Shown: in pieces, positions 10,910-17,797 of the stretch | Numbering within the stretch: the stretch's first letter is position 1 | How the letters are laid out: each line of letters begins with the position of its first letter | NCBI RefSeq assembly: GCF_029531655.1 | Contig: NZ_JANRMI010000001.1 | Location: forward strand, 868,001-932,000 | Source: Bdellovibrio svalbardensis | GTDB taxonomy: Bacteria; Bdellovibrionota; Bdellovibrionia; Bdellovibrionales; Bdellovibrionaceae | Length of the DNA stretch: 64,000 bases | Direction: 5' to 3' | Notes under the pieces: model-generated | Told to the model about the DNA's origin: nothing | Database searches by the model: none | The model's input: the letters and a program-made list of their open reading frames with translations, nothing else | Translations under genes and position numbers: made by a program

Positions 10910-10912
10910 TTA

Positions 10913-10942
10913 AAAAAGAGCGCCAGTGGCGCTCTTTTTTTT
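10913..10942. terminator. Bidirectional terminator after murC
   Basis: Stem GAGCGCC (10918-10924), loop AGT, GGCGCTC (10928-10934), flanked by an A-run and a T-run. It can serve murC and the convergent metalloprotease gene. Confidence 0.9.
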
Positions 10943-10966
10943 TGGTTGAAACTTTCAGCCCGGGTG

Positions 10967-12460
10967 TTACTTGCGCCCGCCTTTACCGCCACCCTTTGTT
11001 GATGAAGAACCGACGATATATGCAGCAGCACCGCTGGCCTTGTAGGCGGTTGCGCTGCTGTTTGTCGCAGTCGCACTAAAGCTGTAAGAACCAGATAACA
11101 CTGAAGTAGATGAGGTCACTGTCAATGTCGCAGATGCCGATGAACCTGCATTTATGGAAAGTGATGGAGATGTAAATGTTGAGTTAAAGCCGTTGAGCAA
11201 GGCACTCTGCAAGTTGAACGTTGAAGTGCCGCACTCTCCGCTGTCATTGTTTTTTATGCTGACTGCATAATTGAGTGCCGTCCCCGCTAAAGCAGTTTGA
11301 GTCGAAGGAGATATTGTTACTGTCGGATTGGCACGTGTGCATGGAGAAGTCAGAGTTATATTGACTGTGAGGCCCAAGCTGCTGGCAGATACAACCGACA
11401 GGCTAATCCCCGCAGCAGAATCAATATAGTTTTGCCCCACGACAAGTGCCCCGTCACGCAGATCATCGAAAGTGCCGCTCGAGCGACTTCCGGGGGTCAT
11501 ATCCAAAAGAAAAACAGCATCCGAACTTCCTTGATGTAAAGTAACACCACCAAAAATATTTTTCAGATCATAAAATGATCCAAAATTGTTAAGTCCGCTA
11601 TCAAAGCCGATCGGCTGACGATATTCTAAATAGTAATAAGTCTTTTCCGAACTGACGGGGTCCACACTTTTTAGAATTTTTAAAGCCTTGGATTTTGTTC
11701 CCAGACTCTCAAAAGGTTCAATCGTATAAAATCCACTCACAGTTACTGTCGTGATCAATGAACTCGAATTGGAATTGAGCCAACCAAGTTTTTCTTTTTG
11801 AGCAGCGTTAAAATGATAATTGTAAACCGTGCCGTTTGATGTGCCATTGCCACCGCCCATCGTATCCAGGACATCTCCATATTCAAGCCAAGGGCAGTTT
11901 CCACTCAGGGTGCCAGCATCGCAATTCATTCCGTGGGCGTGGTTCAATCCAAAATCATGTCCGATTTCATGCGAAACAATCCCCACGTTGAAATTGACAA
12001 CAAAGGGACCGTCATAAGCGGCGGCCTGGCTGCCACCCCAATTGCCACAATTGGAATTGCCGGGCGCTACATACAAAAATCGATTGTAGGTATTGAGGTT
12101 GATTCCAGCAGCGATTGCTGATTGTTGAGCATAAGAGGCAATCTTCGCGGTATCGCAAGACGAGGTCGAGCTCATTGGAATCGTGTACCAACCCGCGACC
12201 TTTCCAGTAAGCGACGTCTGGCCATAGGAGTTTTCTCTGTAAAAATTGGCAACACTTAATCCTGAACCAAACATGACATCTGTTGCTTGCGCCGCCGTGA
12301 ACGGTTGACTCGTAGGCATGTCTTGAAAATTTATAAGAAAGACCAAAATGTTTTGAACTCCTAGGGTGCTGGTTGCGGCTGAGCTAGACAGCGGCAGAGC
12401 TAAAAGGGAGACGGCAATCGGAACGTAAGCTCTGATAAGAAATCTTCTGAATGCATTCAT
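10967..12460 (-). CDS. Secreted metzincin metalloprotease (M11 gametolysin-like) with C-terminal Ig-like domain
   Basis: 497 residues from the ATG at 12460, chosen because GAGGAGG lies about 5 bases upstream and a signal peptide follows (MNAFRRFLIRAYVPIAVSLL, cleavage near SSAAT). The catalytic segment HEIGHDFGLNH fits the metzincin zinc site HExxHxxGxxH. DVLDTMGGG further on can be the Met-turn. This resembles peptidase family M11; the family assignment is tentative. The last ~120 residues are Ser/Thr-rich beta-sandwich sequence (NPTVTISPSTQTALAGTAL), then a basic tail GGGKGGRK. It is the last gene of the pilin-like operon, so it may be secreted or exposed with it. Confidence 0.85.
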   Translation of the reverse strand: MNAFRRFLIRAYVPIAVSLLALPLSSSAATSTLGVQNILVFLINFQDMPTSQPFTAAQATDVMFGSGLSVANFYRENSYGQTSLTGKVAGWYTIPMSSTSSCDTAKIASYAQQSAIAAGINLNTYNRFLYVAPGNSNCGNWGGSQAAAYDGPFVVNFNVGIVSHEIGHDFGLNHAHGMNCDAGTLSGNCPWLEYGDVLDTMGGGNGTSNGTVYNYHFNAAQKEKLGWLNSNSSSLITTVTVSGFYTIEPFESLGTKSKALKILKSVDPVSSEKTYYYLEYRQPIGFDSGLNNFGSFYDLKNIFGGVTLHQGSSDAVFLLDMTPGSRSSGTFDDLRDGALVVGQNYIDSAAGISLSVVSASSLGLTVNITLTSPCTRANPTVTISPSTQTALAGTALNYAVSIKNNDSGECGTSTFNLQSALLNGFNSTFTSPSLSINAGSSASATLTVTSSTSVLSGSYSFSATATNSSATAYKASGAAAYIVGSSSTKGGGKGGRK

Positions 12461-12507
12461 GTTTCCCTCCTCAGGCACTATTGGTTTCTCAGGCAAGTTA
12501 AACGAGG

Positions 12508-13476
12508 CTACGGGGTGACCGTAGTCTTAAACGTTAGGATGTTCGATAGGTTATTAACAGCACCGCCATCATTGACTTGAATTGAGATGGAAGCCACTCC
12601 GGAAGCTTTAGGTGTCAGGATCATTTGTCCTATCGAGTTAATGAAGCGATAGCATTTTACCTCGACAACATTTGTGTCTGAACTTTTACATTCCTGAAAA
12701 ACAAAGTCTTGATTTTCAGTCGGTGATCCAGAGTTTGAGTTGACTGCGATTTGCTTCGCGAAAGGCATTGGCAAAGTTTGATCCGCGATTGTGGCAAGAA
12801 TGGGAGGGTAGTTAAGTTTTATAGGATAGATAATTTTTTTTCTTGTTTCGGCTAACTTTTGAGTTCCAATCGGAGTTGCGACCAGTTCAATGGTCAGGTA
12901 ATCGGCATGATCACACTGGGGCAAACTGGCCGGGCAATGAGCTGTAAATTTTGTTGAGTAAGTATAGGCGCAGTTGCTCGGGACACTGGTGTTAGGGGTG
13001 CAGGGGGCGCCATTAATGTCAAAGTAAGCGGGGTTCGCGGCCGTTCCCGAGAGAGGAATGAGAGGGGGGAGTAGTGAAGGGGGGATCGGCTTCGAATTTG
13101 GATCGTAAAAAACAAAATCTGTGGCGACATCTGCAGTACAAAAAGATTTGGAGCAAATATTTGCCCCATCGGATTTCATATTTCCGCCCATGACGCAGGG
13201 ACAAAGGTCATCATTTATTAGACTTACCCTGGCGCTGATATCCAAAGAGAAATCGGAAGAGCTCATCTTCTGTTCTAAGTTTTGATTCTCAAGAACTCGT
13301 GATATTTTACTTTCATTTTGTCTATAATGCTTTTGAATTTCTAGCTGCGGTACCATGAGTATGAAAAGCATAAAGCCAGTCAGGCCAACGCAAACTGCTA
13401 TTTCCGTAAGAGTAAATCCCTTGTTATTCATACTCTTTAAATAGTCCTTGTTTTTGTCACCAGAGAAAAATTCCAT
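12508..13476 (-). CDS. Pseudopilin-like protein with type IV prepilin leader (paralogue of next gene at C-terminus)
   Basis: 322 residues. The N-terminus contains KG-FTLTEIAVCVGLTGFMLF, a prepilin peptidase site (G|F, E at +5) plus hydrophobic helix. The start at 13476 has AAGGA 6 bases upstream and gives a 20-residue leader; an internal ATG at 13431 would give a short classical leader. The C-terminal ~110 residues (SSDTNVVEVKCYRF... VNDGGAVNNLS...TVTP) closely parallel the end of the neighbouring pilin-like protein, suggesting a shared cadherin/Ig-like module. The gap to the upstream gene is 9 bp, so it is co-transcribed. Confidence 0.82.
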   Translation of the reverse strand: MEFFSGDKNKDYLKSMNNKGFTLTEIAVCVGLTGFMLFILMVPQLEIQKHYRQNESKISRVLENQNLEQKMSSSDFSLDISARVSLINDDLCPCVMGGNMKSDGANICSKSFCTADVATDFVFYDPNSKPIPPSLLPPLIPLSGTAANPAYFDINGAPCTPNTSVPSNCAYTYSTKFTAHCPASLPQCDHADYLTIELVATPIGTQKLAETRKKIIYPIKLNYPPILATIADQTLPMPFAKQIAVNSNSGSPTENQDFVFQECKSSDTNVVEVKCYRFINSIGQMILTPKASGVASISIQVNDGGAVNNLSNILTFKTTVTP

Positions 13477-13485
13477 GGGAAGTCC

Positions 13486-14427
13486 TTAAGGTGTGACAGT
13501 CACGTTAAAAAAAGCTTCCTTGGAAAGGTTGTTCTCAAGGCCGCCGTCATTAATTTGAAGGGCAACTTTGGCAGAGCCAATTCCTGTTGGCTTTAACTTG
13601 ATTTTTGCCGTTCCTGAAGAAAAGGGTGTATCAGGTGGGGTCGTAACTTGCACAACGCTGGAGTTAGAACTCTGACACTTTTCAAAGATAAAGTTTTGAA
13701 CCTCAGAGGGGTGCCCGGAATAACCTGTGATGCTGACCTCTGTCTCTGTTGCAGATGCCAATGATAACGTGATGTCAGGGACTGGAAGCACTGAGGGAGG
13801 ATAGTTGATGTTATTGAAATAGATGAGGGTGAAGTTTTGGTCTTTGATATTCTGACCTTTCACTTTGGTGTTTGGATTGGCTACAAGATGAACGGTGGCG
13901 ATAAGATGTTCGGCGTGATGGCAGGTCGTTTCGTTGCCAGGGCAGACAGCCGTATAAGTTCCACTGAGGCTGTAGCTGCAATCACTTAAATCAACCGTAT
14001 TGGCAGGGCACTGAGTGTTGTTTGCTTTGTACCAGACAGGAGCTGTGGGAGGGCCGATTAACCGAGCTTTTAGATTTAAATCAGAATTCGAGTCTGAAGG
14101 ATCTATAAAATAGAAGCCATCTTCATTGCCAGCATTGCAGCAATTCTCGGTACAAGTGCTGGTCGTGGTGCCGAATAGGCAGGAAGCAAGATTGCTATTG
14201 AGACTTAATCCACTGGATTCGGTTAAGCTATTTGGGGTTTTTAAGAAAGTTAAGATCTGATTTATACTAAACTGTCGGGAAAATCTATGATTGGCGTAGG
14301 ACACTCTGCTTTGCATATTCACGATGCTGTTGCTGTAGCTGACACAGAAAATCGAAGCTAGGACTACCAAGCCTAAGGCTAAAGGAAGTGTGGAGCCGCG
14401 TTTATTGAAGAGGAAACCTGTTTGCAT
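13486..14427 (-). CDS. PilX-like minor pilin candidate with C-terminal Ig-like module
   Basis: 313 residues. The N-terminus NKRGSTLPLALGLVVLASIF is a short basic segment, then Gly and a long hydrophobic helix as in PilX-type minor pilins, although the usual FTLxE is absent. The mature part has many cysteines (SCLFG, CTENCCNAGNEDGFYF). The C-terminal module (SSNSSVVQVTTPPD... INDGGLENNLSKEAFFNVTVTP) resembles that of the next gene. It is the middle gene of the minus-strand operon, 24 bp after the vWA gene and 9 bp before the next. Function is inferred only. Confidence 0.72.
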   Translation of the reverse strand: MQTGFLFNKRGSTLPLALGLVVLASIFCVSYSNSIVNMQSRVSYANHRFSRQFSINQILTFLKTPNSLTESSGLSLNSNLASCLFGTTTSTCTENCCNAGNEDGFYFIDPSDSNSDLNLKARLIGPPTAPVWYKANNTQCPANTVDLSDCSYSLSGTYTAVCPGNETTCHHAEHLIATVHLVANPNTKVKGQNIKDQNFTLIYFNNINYPPSVLPVPDITLSLASATETEVSITGYSGHPSEVQNFIFEKCQSSNSSVVQVTTPPDTPFSSGTAKIKLKPTGIGSAKVALQINDGGLENNLSKEAFFNVTVTP

Positions 14428-14451
14428 TCGAACTCGTCCTTTCCGTCGGAC

Positions 14452-16527
14452 CTATTTTAAATAGACCCTAATGACGTCATTCGGTAAAAGGACTCCCGGC
14501 TTAAATACCAATGTGGTCCCAGTTAACGAGTAATCGACGTTCGCCGTTAGCAAAATAGTCGTACCATTTCTGAGTAGTTCGACGGCATTTAGATTTGCAG
14601 CCACAACGGCTGTTAACTTGATATCGTTGGAAGCAAAAGAGGTGATCCAGGTATCCATTTGAGATAGTTGCGCCGAGTAGTCTGGTGAACAAATGGGCGT
14701 GGGTTTTGAGTTTATACCAGTTTTATTGCCAAGCGCTAAATAGCGAGTTCCTACGCTGGAACCGGTGGTCATGGGGCAAGTCGTTGCGTCGGTATGGACG
14801 ATCGGCATGTAAAAAAAGTTAGACAGATTGACATGATTTTTTAGGCTTTGATAGGTCGCTTCAATAGGATCTGAGATTCCAGGAATAATATCGTACTCAA
14901 TTTGAGTGGTTCCAACCGATTGATTGAACAAAGTTTCCCGACATGAGTTTGTGACATAGTTAATCGGGACTTGTAGTTGGCCATTTGTAACGTTTTCGCA
15001 TATGGGCTGTGGGCTCGGATAGTTGAGACCGAGTTTATGAGTTTGGTTAAAAGTGCGACAAGATTCAATGCTGTACCCAGCGCCTATTGTGTAGATGATG
15101 TTGGGGAGGAAGGTTTTAAAATATTTTGCAACCAGGGATTCGATTTCTGATTGGGACATAAGTGGAAGATCGGCACTGCAATCTGCAAGAGAAGCATAGC
15201 TTGGATTGTAAGGTAATATGGGACTTGCTACGCCAATGGTGTAAGTCCCTGGGGCTCCGTCAATCGTAACATTTGCGGTCACTCGTAGATTGCGCAATTG
15301 AACCTTGCCATTGTAGGTGTACATATTGTCAGACTGTTTGAATTCAGTCAGTTTGCCTTTTTTGCATTTGTTAGCCTGATGCCAAGGAATGCTGAAGTCG
15401 GTTTGGTCGTCTTCATTTGTGATGACCATAAAAACGGTTGGAGTAAATTGATCAAAGACAAAAGGCGCTTTGGTGCCAGGCATTTCCAAAAACTTAAGCA
15501 TTGTGCACAGAGGTGTATCGTTATCAATATTGGGAACATTAAAATACGAATCTATGAGGTTACGAAGAGATTGAACTTTATTCGCATGAAGAGTGGCGTC
15601 TTCATTCGGGATAAAAGGAAATATATGATTTATAGAATATGGTGATCCAATATAGGAAACGGGATCAAAGGTGCTGGTACTGGAGGTATCCATCCAATAG
15701 GTATTATCTATCATCTGAGAATAATAAACAAAGCCGGGCGGAATAGGATTGGGAATAGGAGAAACTTGATTCCCGGATCCATCGATATAGTATTGAGACC
15801 AAGCGGTATTAATGACTGTGGCCAAGCTATAAATACCAACGGTTACATTCATGTTAGAAAGTTTAATAATTAGATCGTCTAAGGCCACTTTGATCTGGTC
15901 TTTTGCGAAAATCATACTGTTAGAGTTATCTAGAAAAATGACCACGTTGACTGGACGGCCATTGGCGACGGTGGAGTCCGGCACGAAGGTCACAATATTG
16001 GTAAAATCGGGGCTCACAATTCCGCGCTTTTCTATGACTGCAGTTTTGAAATTGAGATAATTCAGGTAAGTTTTTGCTGTCACGGTGAAATAAGAAGCCC
16101 GATCACATGAGGTGGCGTTGTTAGGGCAGTGAACTCTAAAGGATAATTCGTTCGAGATGTTAGTGGCTGTATCACTGATGCTGGCAAATTTGAGAGGTAA
16201 TTTTGTGGATAAGTTAAAAGAAAAAAATGGGTATTCTTTGGTTGTGTCGCAGTCGATTTTATCTACGGTCATGCATTGCTGTAGTTGAATATTTTCAGGA
16301 AATTCTTTGAGGGCGCCGAAGTAGACGGGTTGCGTGACAAGCTTGAGCATCTCGGTGTTTTCAATTTCTCGGTCTACCTTGGCAGCTTCTTTGGCGACCG
16401 ACGAGCTCAACCATGTATTCATTGACGCGACACCGGTGACTACGACGCCGCAAATACCGATGGAGATCAGTATTTCGATTAATGTAAACCCACCGTTTTG
16501 CCACTTCAATTTATCGTTAGTGATCAC
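14452..16527 (-). CDS. Pseudopilin fused to von Willebrand factor A domain (putative pilus-tip adhesin)
   Basis: 691 residues from a GTG with GGGGAG about 8 bases upstream. The prepilin signal NGGFTLIEILISIGICGVVV lies at residues ~11-30 (cleavage after GG, Glu at +5). At ~200 a vWA fold begins, VNVVIFLDNSNSMIFAKDQI, with the MIDAS motif DxSxS as DNSNS. Further vWA-like strands (TVFMVITNEDDQTDFS) and several Cys pairs follow. The C-terminus is a small repeat-like segment (VELLRNGTTILLTANVDYSL). It is first in an operon with two more pilin-like genes and a metzincin. A pilin directly carrying a vWA domain suggests a tip or adhesion role, like vWA-bearing PilY1-type proteins; this is inference. 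Confidence 0.8.
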   Translation of the reverse strand: MITNDKLKWQNGGFTLIEILISIGICGVVVTGVASMNTWLSSSVAKEAAKVDREIENTEMLKLVTQPVYFGALKEFPENIQLQQCMTVDKIDCDTTKEYPFFSFNLSTKLPLKFASISDTATNISNELSFRVHCPNNATSCDRASYFTVTAKTYLNYLNFKTAVIEKRGIVSPDFTNIVTFVPDSTVANGRPVNVVIFLDNSNSMIFAKDQIKVALDDLIIKLSNMNVTVGIYSLATVINTAWSQYYIDGSGNQVSPIPNPIPPGFVYYSQMIDNTYWMDTSSTSTFDPVSYIGSPYSINHIFPFIPNEDATLHANKVQSLRNLIDSYFNVPNIDNDTPLCTMLKFLEMPGTKAPFVFDQFTPTVFMVITNEDDQTDFSIPWHQANKCKKGKLTEFKQSDNMYTYNGKVQLRNLRVTANVTIDGAPGTYTIGVASPILPYNPSYASLADCSADLPLMSQSEIESLVAKYFKTFLPNIIYTIGAGYSIESCRTFNQTHKLGLNYPSPQPICENVTNGQLQVPINYVTNSCRETLFNQSVGTTQIEYDIIPGISDPIEATYQSLKNHVNLSNFFYMPIVHTDATTCPMTTGSSVGTRYLALGNKTGINSKPTPICSPDYSAQLSQMDTWITSFASNDIKLTAVVAANLNAVELLRNGTTILLTANVDYSLTGTTLVFKPGVLLPNDVIRVYLK

Positions 16528-16689
16528 TGGTGTTTCTCCCCGTCACTACTCTTATCGACATAAATGCGAGGTGTATTTATGATTTGCGAACTAAAGATGC
16601 TCCCAGGATTTCTTGAGAATTACTGTCGTTCAGAATCGCCAGGGGGTGATCTTGCGTTTCAAAGAAGAACAGGTCTCATTGCAATTCGG

Positions 16690-17151
16690 TCATAAGATTT
16701 GAAGGATGAGCCGAACTTCCTCTCGGAGTTTTTTAAAGTGAGAGCCTTCCCAGTAAACACGGTGACAGGTAGGGCATTCAAAGAAGTTCTGGTAAAAGCG
16801 GAAGGTGTTTGGGTCTACGCGGTCTTTGAGCGATTCCTTTGGAATTTTTGCGATGATCGTATTGCATTCAAAGCATCTTGATAAAGGAATATTTCCCAAG
16901 TCCGAAAATGTCTTTAAAATTTCGATAAGTTGTTCTTGCGGTTTCTCACTTTGGACAAGATAAGCTTCGCCAGAGGGAATCGTTCGGTAGAACTTCTGAT
17001 CTTTGGTCAAAATAATTCGCTTCTGTGAGGCCGCCGCAAAATAGATTTCTTTGTCAGAGGTTTCCTTTAGGGCGATGGAGTCCACACCCATCATGCGGAG
17101 CTTTCTTAATAGACCCAAGAGATTTTCGTCGACCAAAAAGGCGATGTTCAT
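16690..17151 (-). CDS. Mut7-C RNase-domain protein (PIN-like fold with zinc ribbon)
   Basis: 153 residues. The N-terminus FLVDENLLGLLRKLRMMGVDS and IILTKDQKFYR match the PIN-like Mut7-C domain, in which early Asp and later Asp residues form the metal site. The C-terminus is a zinc ribbon with CFEC and CPTC pairs followed by RVYWEGSHFKKL, the hallmark of the family. Mut7-C proteins are predicted RNases, but no substrate is established here. It is a lone minus-strand gene; 162 bp with no clear feature separate it from the vWA gene. Confidence 0.88.
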   Translation of the reverse strand: MNIAFLVDENLLGLLRKLRMMGVDSIALKETSDKEIYFAAASQKRIILTKDQKFYRTIPSGEAYLVQSEKPQEQLIEILKTFSDLGNIPLSRCFECNTIIAKIPKESLKDRVDPNTFRFYQNFFECPTCHRVYWEGSHFKKLREEVRLILQIL

Positions 17152-17339
17152 AATAGAGATTCCATATTCAAAGATTATCTTCCTTCTAGCTTTGTGTTTT
17201 TCGAATTGCTAAATGCCATAGATTCCAATTGCTTCAAAGCAAGTACATGTATTGCTCCCGACCTATCTTGTCCCACGACGGAACTTTATCTAAATTGATT
17301 TTTCAAGTTTAACGACTCAATAAAGTCGAAGGAGTGATT

Positions 17340-17738
17340 ATGGAAATGTCTAAAGAAACACCAGTGGGACCATCTAAAGATACAATGGAGGTTGGCCGCA
17401 AGCTCGTAGAGCTTTGCAAGAAGGGCGACAACATGAAGGCGGTTGAGACACTTTATTCACCTGATATCGAGAGCATTGAGGCGATGCAGATGCCAGGCAT
17501 GGGCAAGGAAAAAGGTCTTGAAGCGGCAATAAAGAAAAATCGTATGTGGATGGACGAGAATGAAGTCAACTCGATGAGTGTGGAAGGGCCTTTTCCTCTG
17601 GGGGATCGTTTTGCAGTTCACTATAAATACGATACGACAAATCGAAAGTCGAAAGAACGCATGAAGATGGAAGAGGTGGCACTCTATCAAGTGAAGAATG
17701 GGAAAATCGTGAAAGAGGAGTTCTTCTACACGATGTAG
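17340..17738 (+). CDS. SnoaL/NTF2-like small protein
   Basis: 132 residues from the ATG at 17340, five bases after AAGGAG (17329-17334); a GTG at 17334 lies inside that site. The pattern of an N-terminal helix (VGRKLVELCKKGDNMKAVETLYSPDIESIEA), a central KGLEAAIKKNRMWMD helix and three strands ending VALYQVKNGKIVKEEFFYTM matches SnoaL/NTF2-like cone folds. These serve as enzymes or ligand binders; no catalytic residues can be assigned. A small hairpin (CGACT...AGTCG) sits just before the Shine-Dalgarno. Confidence 0.75.
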   Translation: MEMSKETPVGPSKDTMEVGRKLVELCKKGDNMKAVETLYSPDIESIEAMQMPGMGKEKGLEAAIKKNRMWMDENEVNSMSVEGPFPLGDRFAVHYKYDTTNRKSKERMKMEEVALYQVKNGKIVKEEFFYTM

Positions 17739-17744
17739 GAAGCG

Positions 17745-17776
17745 ATCGGCTGAGTATCTTTGGAGGCTCAGCCGAT
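17745..17776. terminator. Hairpin terminator between convergent NTF2-like and chemoreceptor genes
   Basis: Ten-base arms ATCGGCTGAG and CTCAGCCGAT with a 12-base loop, located between the two stop codons. The T-run is weak (TTTC). Confidence 0.6.
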
Positions 17777-17797
17777 TTCAATCCAGATTAGAGATTC

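Follow-up and report, generated by a model that had tools for sequence, protein, structure and literature searches.

The window analysed here, a stretch of 64,000 nucleotides from Bdellovibrio svalbardensis, carries four genes on its minus strand at 10967-16527, in the order A, B, C, D, which are separated by short gaps of 24 bp (A-B), 9 bp (B-C), and 47 bp (C-D, counting D from the ATG at 12460). Gene A (14452-16527, minus strand, GTG start) encodes a minor pilin of 691 amino acids bearing a von Willebrand A (vWA) domain. Gene B (13486-14427, minus strand) encodes a minor pilin with a Cys-rich pilin module and without Glu5 (G/STLPL, where the slash marks the end of the leader), gene C (12508-13476, minus strand) encodes a minor pilin with Glu5 (G/FTLTE), a Cys-rich module, and an Ig-like C terminus, and gene D (10967-12460, minus strand) encodes a secreted M6-like metzincin with a Sec-type signal. 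An earlier note on this DNA had placed a 691-residue reading frame at 14452-16527, followed on the same strand and at short distances by two more pilin-like genes and a secreted metzincin; its coordinates are right, the strand is the minus one, and genes B to D answer to its description.

The product of gene D harbors the motif HEIGHDFGLNH, of the HExxHxxGxxH type, and the Met-turn DTMGG(G). It is named here an M6-like metzincin because, though both motifs are present, its match to TIGR03296 (67.5 bits, E 1.7e-18) stays below the curated cut-off of 110.8 bits. The start of D is most likely the ATG at 12460, which is preceded by a GAGGAGG ribosome site, rather than the TTG at 12496. Short basic tails (GGGKGGRK, GGGRK, and TSTRRK) are found on three related metzincins, namely, D and those encoded at L151:6328-7911 and L071:7637-9553, and it is possible that they represent a sorting tail. 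Between murC and D lies a strong bidirectional intrinsic terminator with a 13-pair stem and T runs on both strands (10912-10940); other terminator- or promoter-like sites are no more frequent than in shuffled sequences.

Genes D, C, B, and A, together with a Mut7-C and a SnoaL-like gene, make up a block at 10911-17790 between murC and MCP/ftsQ. In the genome closest by MurC (G016, 93%), a gap of 65 bp separates murC from the MCP gene; murC is directly beside ftsQ in two other relatives (G024 and G026), and the gap holds unrelated genes in four (G019, G025, G004, and G007). Since the relatives are either empty or filled differently at this position, 10911-17790 is taken as an insertion specific to this strain, at a site in the division/cell-wall cluster that varies, and for which the closest relatives provide a clean empty site (murC-ftsQ). 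The composition of the inserted block gives no clear sign of foreign origin (44% GC versus 46% for the window). Across the genus (L138-L145), the murC-ftsQ interval is empty, holds one MCP gene, or holds 3-6 kb of unrelated genes, among which are a dehydrogenase and genes for Cys-rich secreted, gamma-glutamyltransferase-like, and outer-membrane-like proteins. The Mut7-C RNase-domain gene (16690-17151; PF01927, E 2.7e-38) lies inside the insertion, just upstream of the cassette.

Pilin scaffold and vWA domain of gene A

The prepilin leader of A comprises residues 1-13 (NGG/FTLIE, class III). The GGFTLIE sequence at residues 12-18 (16494-16474, minus strand), which the earlier note had read as a prepilin site, falls within a match to Pfam N_methyl PF07963 that exceeds its cut-off (24.1 versus 21.2 bits). 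A Glu5-containing pilin module extends to about residue 185; after the leader, a helix (residues 16-65) and strands (98-181) are predicted in a low-confidence AlphaFold model with pLDDT mostly <60. The module contains FRVHCPNNATSCDRASYF, a motif of the same type as in B and C, and the A and B/C pilin-module profiles cross-match. B and C are homologous to each other by sequence comparison and share one plan, in which the leader is followed by a Cys-rich module closing in a CP...C.HAE/D motif and then by a C-terminal Ig-like domain. In B this domain spans residues 209-313 according to fold comparison and superposes on an S-layer SbsC domain (Z 12.2, rmsd 1.9, 91 residues). Because the pilin modules are common to the three proteins and A ends in a vWA domain where B and C have an Ig-like one, we regard A, B, and C as one pilin scaffold with different grafted modules.

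In A, the grafted part would consist of a vWA domain with Cys-rich insertions (about residues 190-632, by fold comparison) and a small C-terminal beta domain (about residues 635-691) which is common to Bd0875-type MIDAS adhesins. The structure predictions drew on proteins of the window and of related loci, which gave alignments of few rows (3 and 2), and the model of A, built on an alignment of 3 sequences, is weak (mean pLDDT 46). The structure prediction that the earlier note had suggested nevertheless recovers the vWA fold: residues 190-632 superpose on vWA/I domains with Z 12.4-13.4 and rmsd 3.0-4.3 over about 165-188 residues, the best superposition reaching Z 13.4 and rmsd 3.1 over 171 residues, and nearly all entries in the fold-comparison list are vWA/I domains. 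The top Foldseek matches are the SpaC pilus adhesin and integrin beta headpieces; matches beyond vWA folds, such as one to a capsid, were set aside in view of the low-confidence model. In the profile search, also suggested in the earlier note, the profile of A aligns with that of the MIDAS lipoprotein adhesins over residues 176-688 (hhalign probability 98.8%, E 5e-17). No Pfam VWA model scores over threshold in A, and VWA_2 matches three of six relatives (best E 0.059). NF052240 gives a partial match at residues 581-675 (25.6 bits, E 6.4e-6, against a curated cut-off of 700 bits).

MIDAS loop 1 of A is DNSNS (residues 200-204; 15930-15916, minus strand), and loop 3 is TNEDD (residues 370-374; 15406-15420, minus strand). 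Among nine A proteins, mostly 28-52% identical, DxSxS is unchanged, in the form of DNSNS, DGSGS, or DTSHS, as is the "NE" of loop 3, which in A aligns with the Bd0875 loop bearing its functionally required acidic residue. The same nine proteins have 12 Cys residues in nearly all cases, 11 of them invariant. The earlier note had proposed the vWA domain from the DNSNS residues. DxSxS also arises in 21% of shuffled A sequences, and therefore the motif alone is no evidence for a vWA domain and was rejected as such; the proposal stands instead on the Z of 13.4 to I/A domains and on the alignment to the lipoprotein adhesins. Taken with the conserved residues, fold comparison and MIDAS-adhesin homology make the vWA fold of A well supported, and on this modelling and sequence basis gene A is confirmed as a pilin fused to a vWA/MIDAS-type domain. 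The loop-2 position varies among the A relatives (T, N, H, or S), and because the textbook Thr is not kept, metal binding by the MIDAS of A is considered likely but unproven.

Distribution of the three-pilin cassette

Two further A/B/C sets are present in the host genome, on contigs C4 and C5, in both cases as adjacent B-A-C genes and in neither case with a metzincin. Another species of the genus (G025) has one B-A-C cassette, again without a metzincin. Outside the genus, a Pseudobdellovibrionaceae metagenome assembly (G085), belonging to another family of the order, has B and C as a pair and, on separate contigs other than the B-C contig, three genes for A. In two genomes of one family outside the class and within the same phylum (G349 and G350), A is present in both, C directly follows A in G350, and B was found in neither. 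This census was made by targeted searches. A scan with the three paralogs of the host alone found no relatives; a broader alignment recovered G085. The cassette family occurs in 2 of the 24 genus genomes and is missing from the other 22; the A pilin module is matched in 12 of 369 genomes of the phylum at E<=1e-6, most of these matches being weak outside the five genomes named above. Orthologous operons in other Bdellovibrionota, which the earlier note had recommended looking for, hence exist as a complete B-A-C in G025 and as parts in G085 and in G349/G350, but they are rare. A role as a core predation gene is rejected, since only 2 of 24 genus genomes carry the family.

The A tree and the B/C tree are congruent: the cassette in the window (C1) groups with that on C4, followed by G025 and G085 and then by the C5 cassette, so that the three parts travel together. 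The C5 cassette sits on a long branch in both trees, and long branches leave the exact placement unsure; to judge from these trees, it is an old separate lineage and not a recent duplicate.

The conserved unit is the three-pilin cassette B-A-C and not a pilin-metzincin operon. The latter term, used in the earlier note, fits the adjacency of pilins and metzincin in the window but does not extend to the sister cassettes or to G025. D has no homolog at E<=1e-30 in the other 23 of 24 genus genomes and, being absent also from the paralogous cassettes and from the G025 cassette, is not a conserved partner; a general functional partnership of the metzincin is rejected on the same grounds. Of the four related metzincins in the host, one is D itself, another is encoded next to a MIDAS lipoprotein, and a third adjoins two paired pilin genes. 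A weaker link between metzincins and pilins or MIDAS proteins might be read from these four, which are too few to conclude. At L151:4996-7911, a MIDAS lipoprotein adhesin gene is convergent with a paralog of D (36%), and at L071:5795-9553 a further distant D paralog adjoins a pilin pair.

The B/C-type pilin module has a wider distribution. Some two dozen further genomes of the Bdellovibrionia have weak matches to it (E 1e-21 to 1e-7), which span most of the module and fall in proteins of 200-930 amino acids that are often encoded in pairs or triples. Pilins of about 600-920 amino acids with the same type of pilin module are found at L097, L098, L102, L112, and L114, several of them paired or tripled; their long C-terminal regions have no Pfam match where scanned. 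A separate, diverged vWA pilin of 771 amino acids, recovered through its vWA module only, is encoded in G039 and is directly followed by two other pilin genes (L042:4178-8299). In this phylum, modules may often have been grafted onto tip pilins.

Glu5 pattern and assembly machines of the host

The role of Glu5 in a mature type IV pilin is to neutralise the N terminus of the neighbouring subunit; GspK, PilX, and Streptococcus sanguinis PilA, which lack this residue, are located at the tip or added first (PMC9934059, PMC7541494). In the five B proteins, position 5 is occupied by L, L, Y, Y, and N and in none by Glu, whereas the leader alignment shows Glu5 in every A and C protein of the B-containing genomes. 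Exactly one Glu5-less subunit type, B, is hence present in all five B-containing sets, and in G349 and G350, where B was not detected, position +5 of A is Gly. The pattern was recognised in hindsight, and for the B-less situation there are two genomes, which are related. By analogy with GspIJK and PilABC, it is what a tip complex that has a single apex should show, with B as the predicted apex subunit, and it supplies a simple sequence rule for recognising such a subunit.

The location of a vWA domain within a pilin, which the earlier note had contrasted with pili capped by PilY1-type vWA proteins, has a precedent. The vWA module belongs to the 15 most frequent architectures of modular pilins, and S. 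sanguinis PilB is a bimodular vWA pilin adhesin which binds fibrinogen and fibronectin (PMC8179133). PilABC, like B-A-C, is encoded by an operon of three minor pilins, one of which lacks Glu5 (PilA, corresponding to B here) (PMC8179133, PMC9934059), one bears a vWA module with a MIDAS (PilB, corresponding to A), and the third combines Glu5 with an extra module (PilC, corresponding to C). However, the module of PilC is a lectin and that of C is Ig-like, the apex pilin B also bears an Ig-like module, the vWA domain of A is interrupted by large Cys-rich insertions and followed by a C-terminal beta domain of the type found in Bdellovibrio MIDAS adhesins, and the host of the cassette is a diderm predator. 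PilABC is, in our judgement, the closest analogue of B-A-C in logic. A similar logic is seen in GspI-J-K and in the PilVWX proteins of type IVa pili with PilY1, which comprise at least three minor pilins, among them a single apex subunit without Glu5, and, in the case of PilY1, a vWA domain at the tip; here, instead, the vWA domain is inside a pilin and not in a separate PilY1, and A, B, and C have no sequence match to GspIJK/PilVWX past the leader region. The PilY1 beta-propeller model PF05567 has no match in A in the Pfam scan and none in 143 genomes of the class, where the positive control was equally silent, and these searches therefore give no ground for seeing the cassette as a substitute for a missing PilY1.

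As to machines that could carry the complex, the host has a complete type II secretion system (T2SS), from GspD to GspK, with its own GspG-K in the T2SS locus, as well as a PilT over cut-off and a PilA-like major pilin. The prepilin census detected further minor-pilin sets at C2:95.6 kb, C1:250.8 kb, C2:654.6 kb, C1:618 kb, and C2:349 kb, and the B-A-C cassettes are therefore extra. We considered that B-A-C might cap the T2SS pseudopilus, as an alternative to GspK-I-J which recruits or expels substrates and for which D would be the neighbouring cargo. A complete T2SS, a secreted protease with a Sec-type signal whose gene immediately follows C, and the lack of Glu5 in B, as in GspK, would suit this role. 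It appears unlikely given that GspG-K are already provided by the T2SS locus, that D is missing from two sister cassettes and from the relatives, and that integrin-like vWA modules are typical of adhesins. A type IV pilus would be the likelier carrier, because the T2SS already owns its G-K set. Paralogous minor-pilin sets at L010:3635-9415 and L069:2874-8365 begin with a GspK/PilX-like gene of 930-990 amino acids and end with a gene for a secreted protein of about 418 amino acids, with an EF-hand match in L010; they are candidate core type IV pilus tip complexes.

A candidate exchangeable pilus tip

Our preferred reading, with a probability of roughly 0.6, is that B, A, and C assemble on a type IV filament into an accessory tip complex that is exchangeable and displays a metal-dependent adhesin. 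The three leaders would be cut by the prepilin peptidase, and B would occupy the apex with A and C beneath it, as the Glu5 pattern and the known GspIJK and PilABC complexes suggest. The carrier is most likely the type IVa pilus of the predator, whose end would present two Ig-like modules and one bulky vWA module. To bind its ligand, the vWA domain is expected to use a divalent metal that the conserved MIDAS residues would hold, in a grip that could be loaded by pilus retraction. D would be an accessory secreted protease at the end of this cassette copy only. As three diverged copies are present in the genome, the host probably mixes alternative tips.

The MIDAS Asp of Bd0875 is needed for normal prey entry (PMC11003981). 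A resembles Bd0875 and the NF052240 family in combining a vWA domain with a small beta-rich C-terminal domain, in MIDAS loop 1, and in the acidic residue of loop 3. In contrast, Bd0875 is a lipobox outer-membrane protein, while A would be anchored by a pilin helix behind its class III leader, its insertions are larger, and it scores 25.6 bits against the 700-bit NF052240 cut-off. We found no paper joining Bdellovibrio MIDAS adhesins to pilins. vWA pilins are known elsewhere, and what is new here, as far as homology indicates, is that the grip domain is borrowed from the adhesins with which Bdellovibrio itself invades prey. Because the module of A is that of the outer-membrane Bd0875-family adhesins, its likeliest ligand would be a prey or other bacterial surface, and the same homology makes prey contact a plausible role of the cassette. 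The cassette would modulate rather than enable predation, since the family is absent from most of the genus.

A true tip adhesin could also serve to hold abiotic surfaces, matrix, or kin cells instead of prey. PilB-type vWA pilins do bind matrix proteins, and most predators of the genus dispense with the cassette; set against the presence of Bd0875, which acts at the predator-prey junction, among the nearest relatives of the vWA module, this makes a non-prey target improbable in our estimate. Still less credible is a vWA part acting mainly as a force or contact sensor of the pilus, as proposed for the vWA domain of PilY1, which has been linked to surface signalling and mechanosensing (PMC13190605). 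The Cys-rich nature of A would agree with such a function, but the conserved cassette encodes no signalling partner, and B and C bear Ig-like display modules.

For interchangeable minor-pilin tips, a parallel is known from another predator. The Kil Tips of Myxococcus xanthus are KilLMN minor-pilin complexes, homologs of TadE/F/G, on a Tad pilus, and they resemble the B-A-C cassettes as several paralogous heterotrimeric minor-pilin sets with variable distal domains in one predator (PMC12075869). Unlike the Kil Tips, A, B, and C bear prepilin motifs of the type IV/T2SS class, with GFTLxE-class leaders, and even at permissive E-values neither Pfam nor NCBIfam gives them a match to a TadE, TadF, or TadG family; no vWA domain is described for the Kil Tips in the part of the source consulted (PMC12075869). 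We tentatively entertain a broader reading, possible though somewhat doubtful, in which the Bdellovibrionota have a swappable pilus-tip system: a pilin would have acquired the prey-invasion MIDAS module of an outer-membrane lipoprotein, gain or loss of Glu5 would shift the apex position to another subunit, and prey range or grip strength would be set by the cassettes. The cassettes would be patchy, several per genome, with one inside the division/cell-wall cluster, and would resemble the Kil Tips while being built independently from type IV pilins.

Type IV pili are reported to be required for Bdellovibrio predation, and in the literature that we found no tip adhesin is assigned to them. As to how these pili recognise prey, A is a named tip-adhesin candidate with a putative metal site, and it would tie an experimentally studied MIDAS adhesin family to pili. 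The cassette moreover offers a three-subunit candidate complex, along with natural strains that have it and natural strains that lack it. A search of the host genome with NF052240 returned at least seven MIDAS-type loci besides the Bd0875 ortholog, one of which (L015) encodes a protein of 595 amino acids with added domains.
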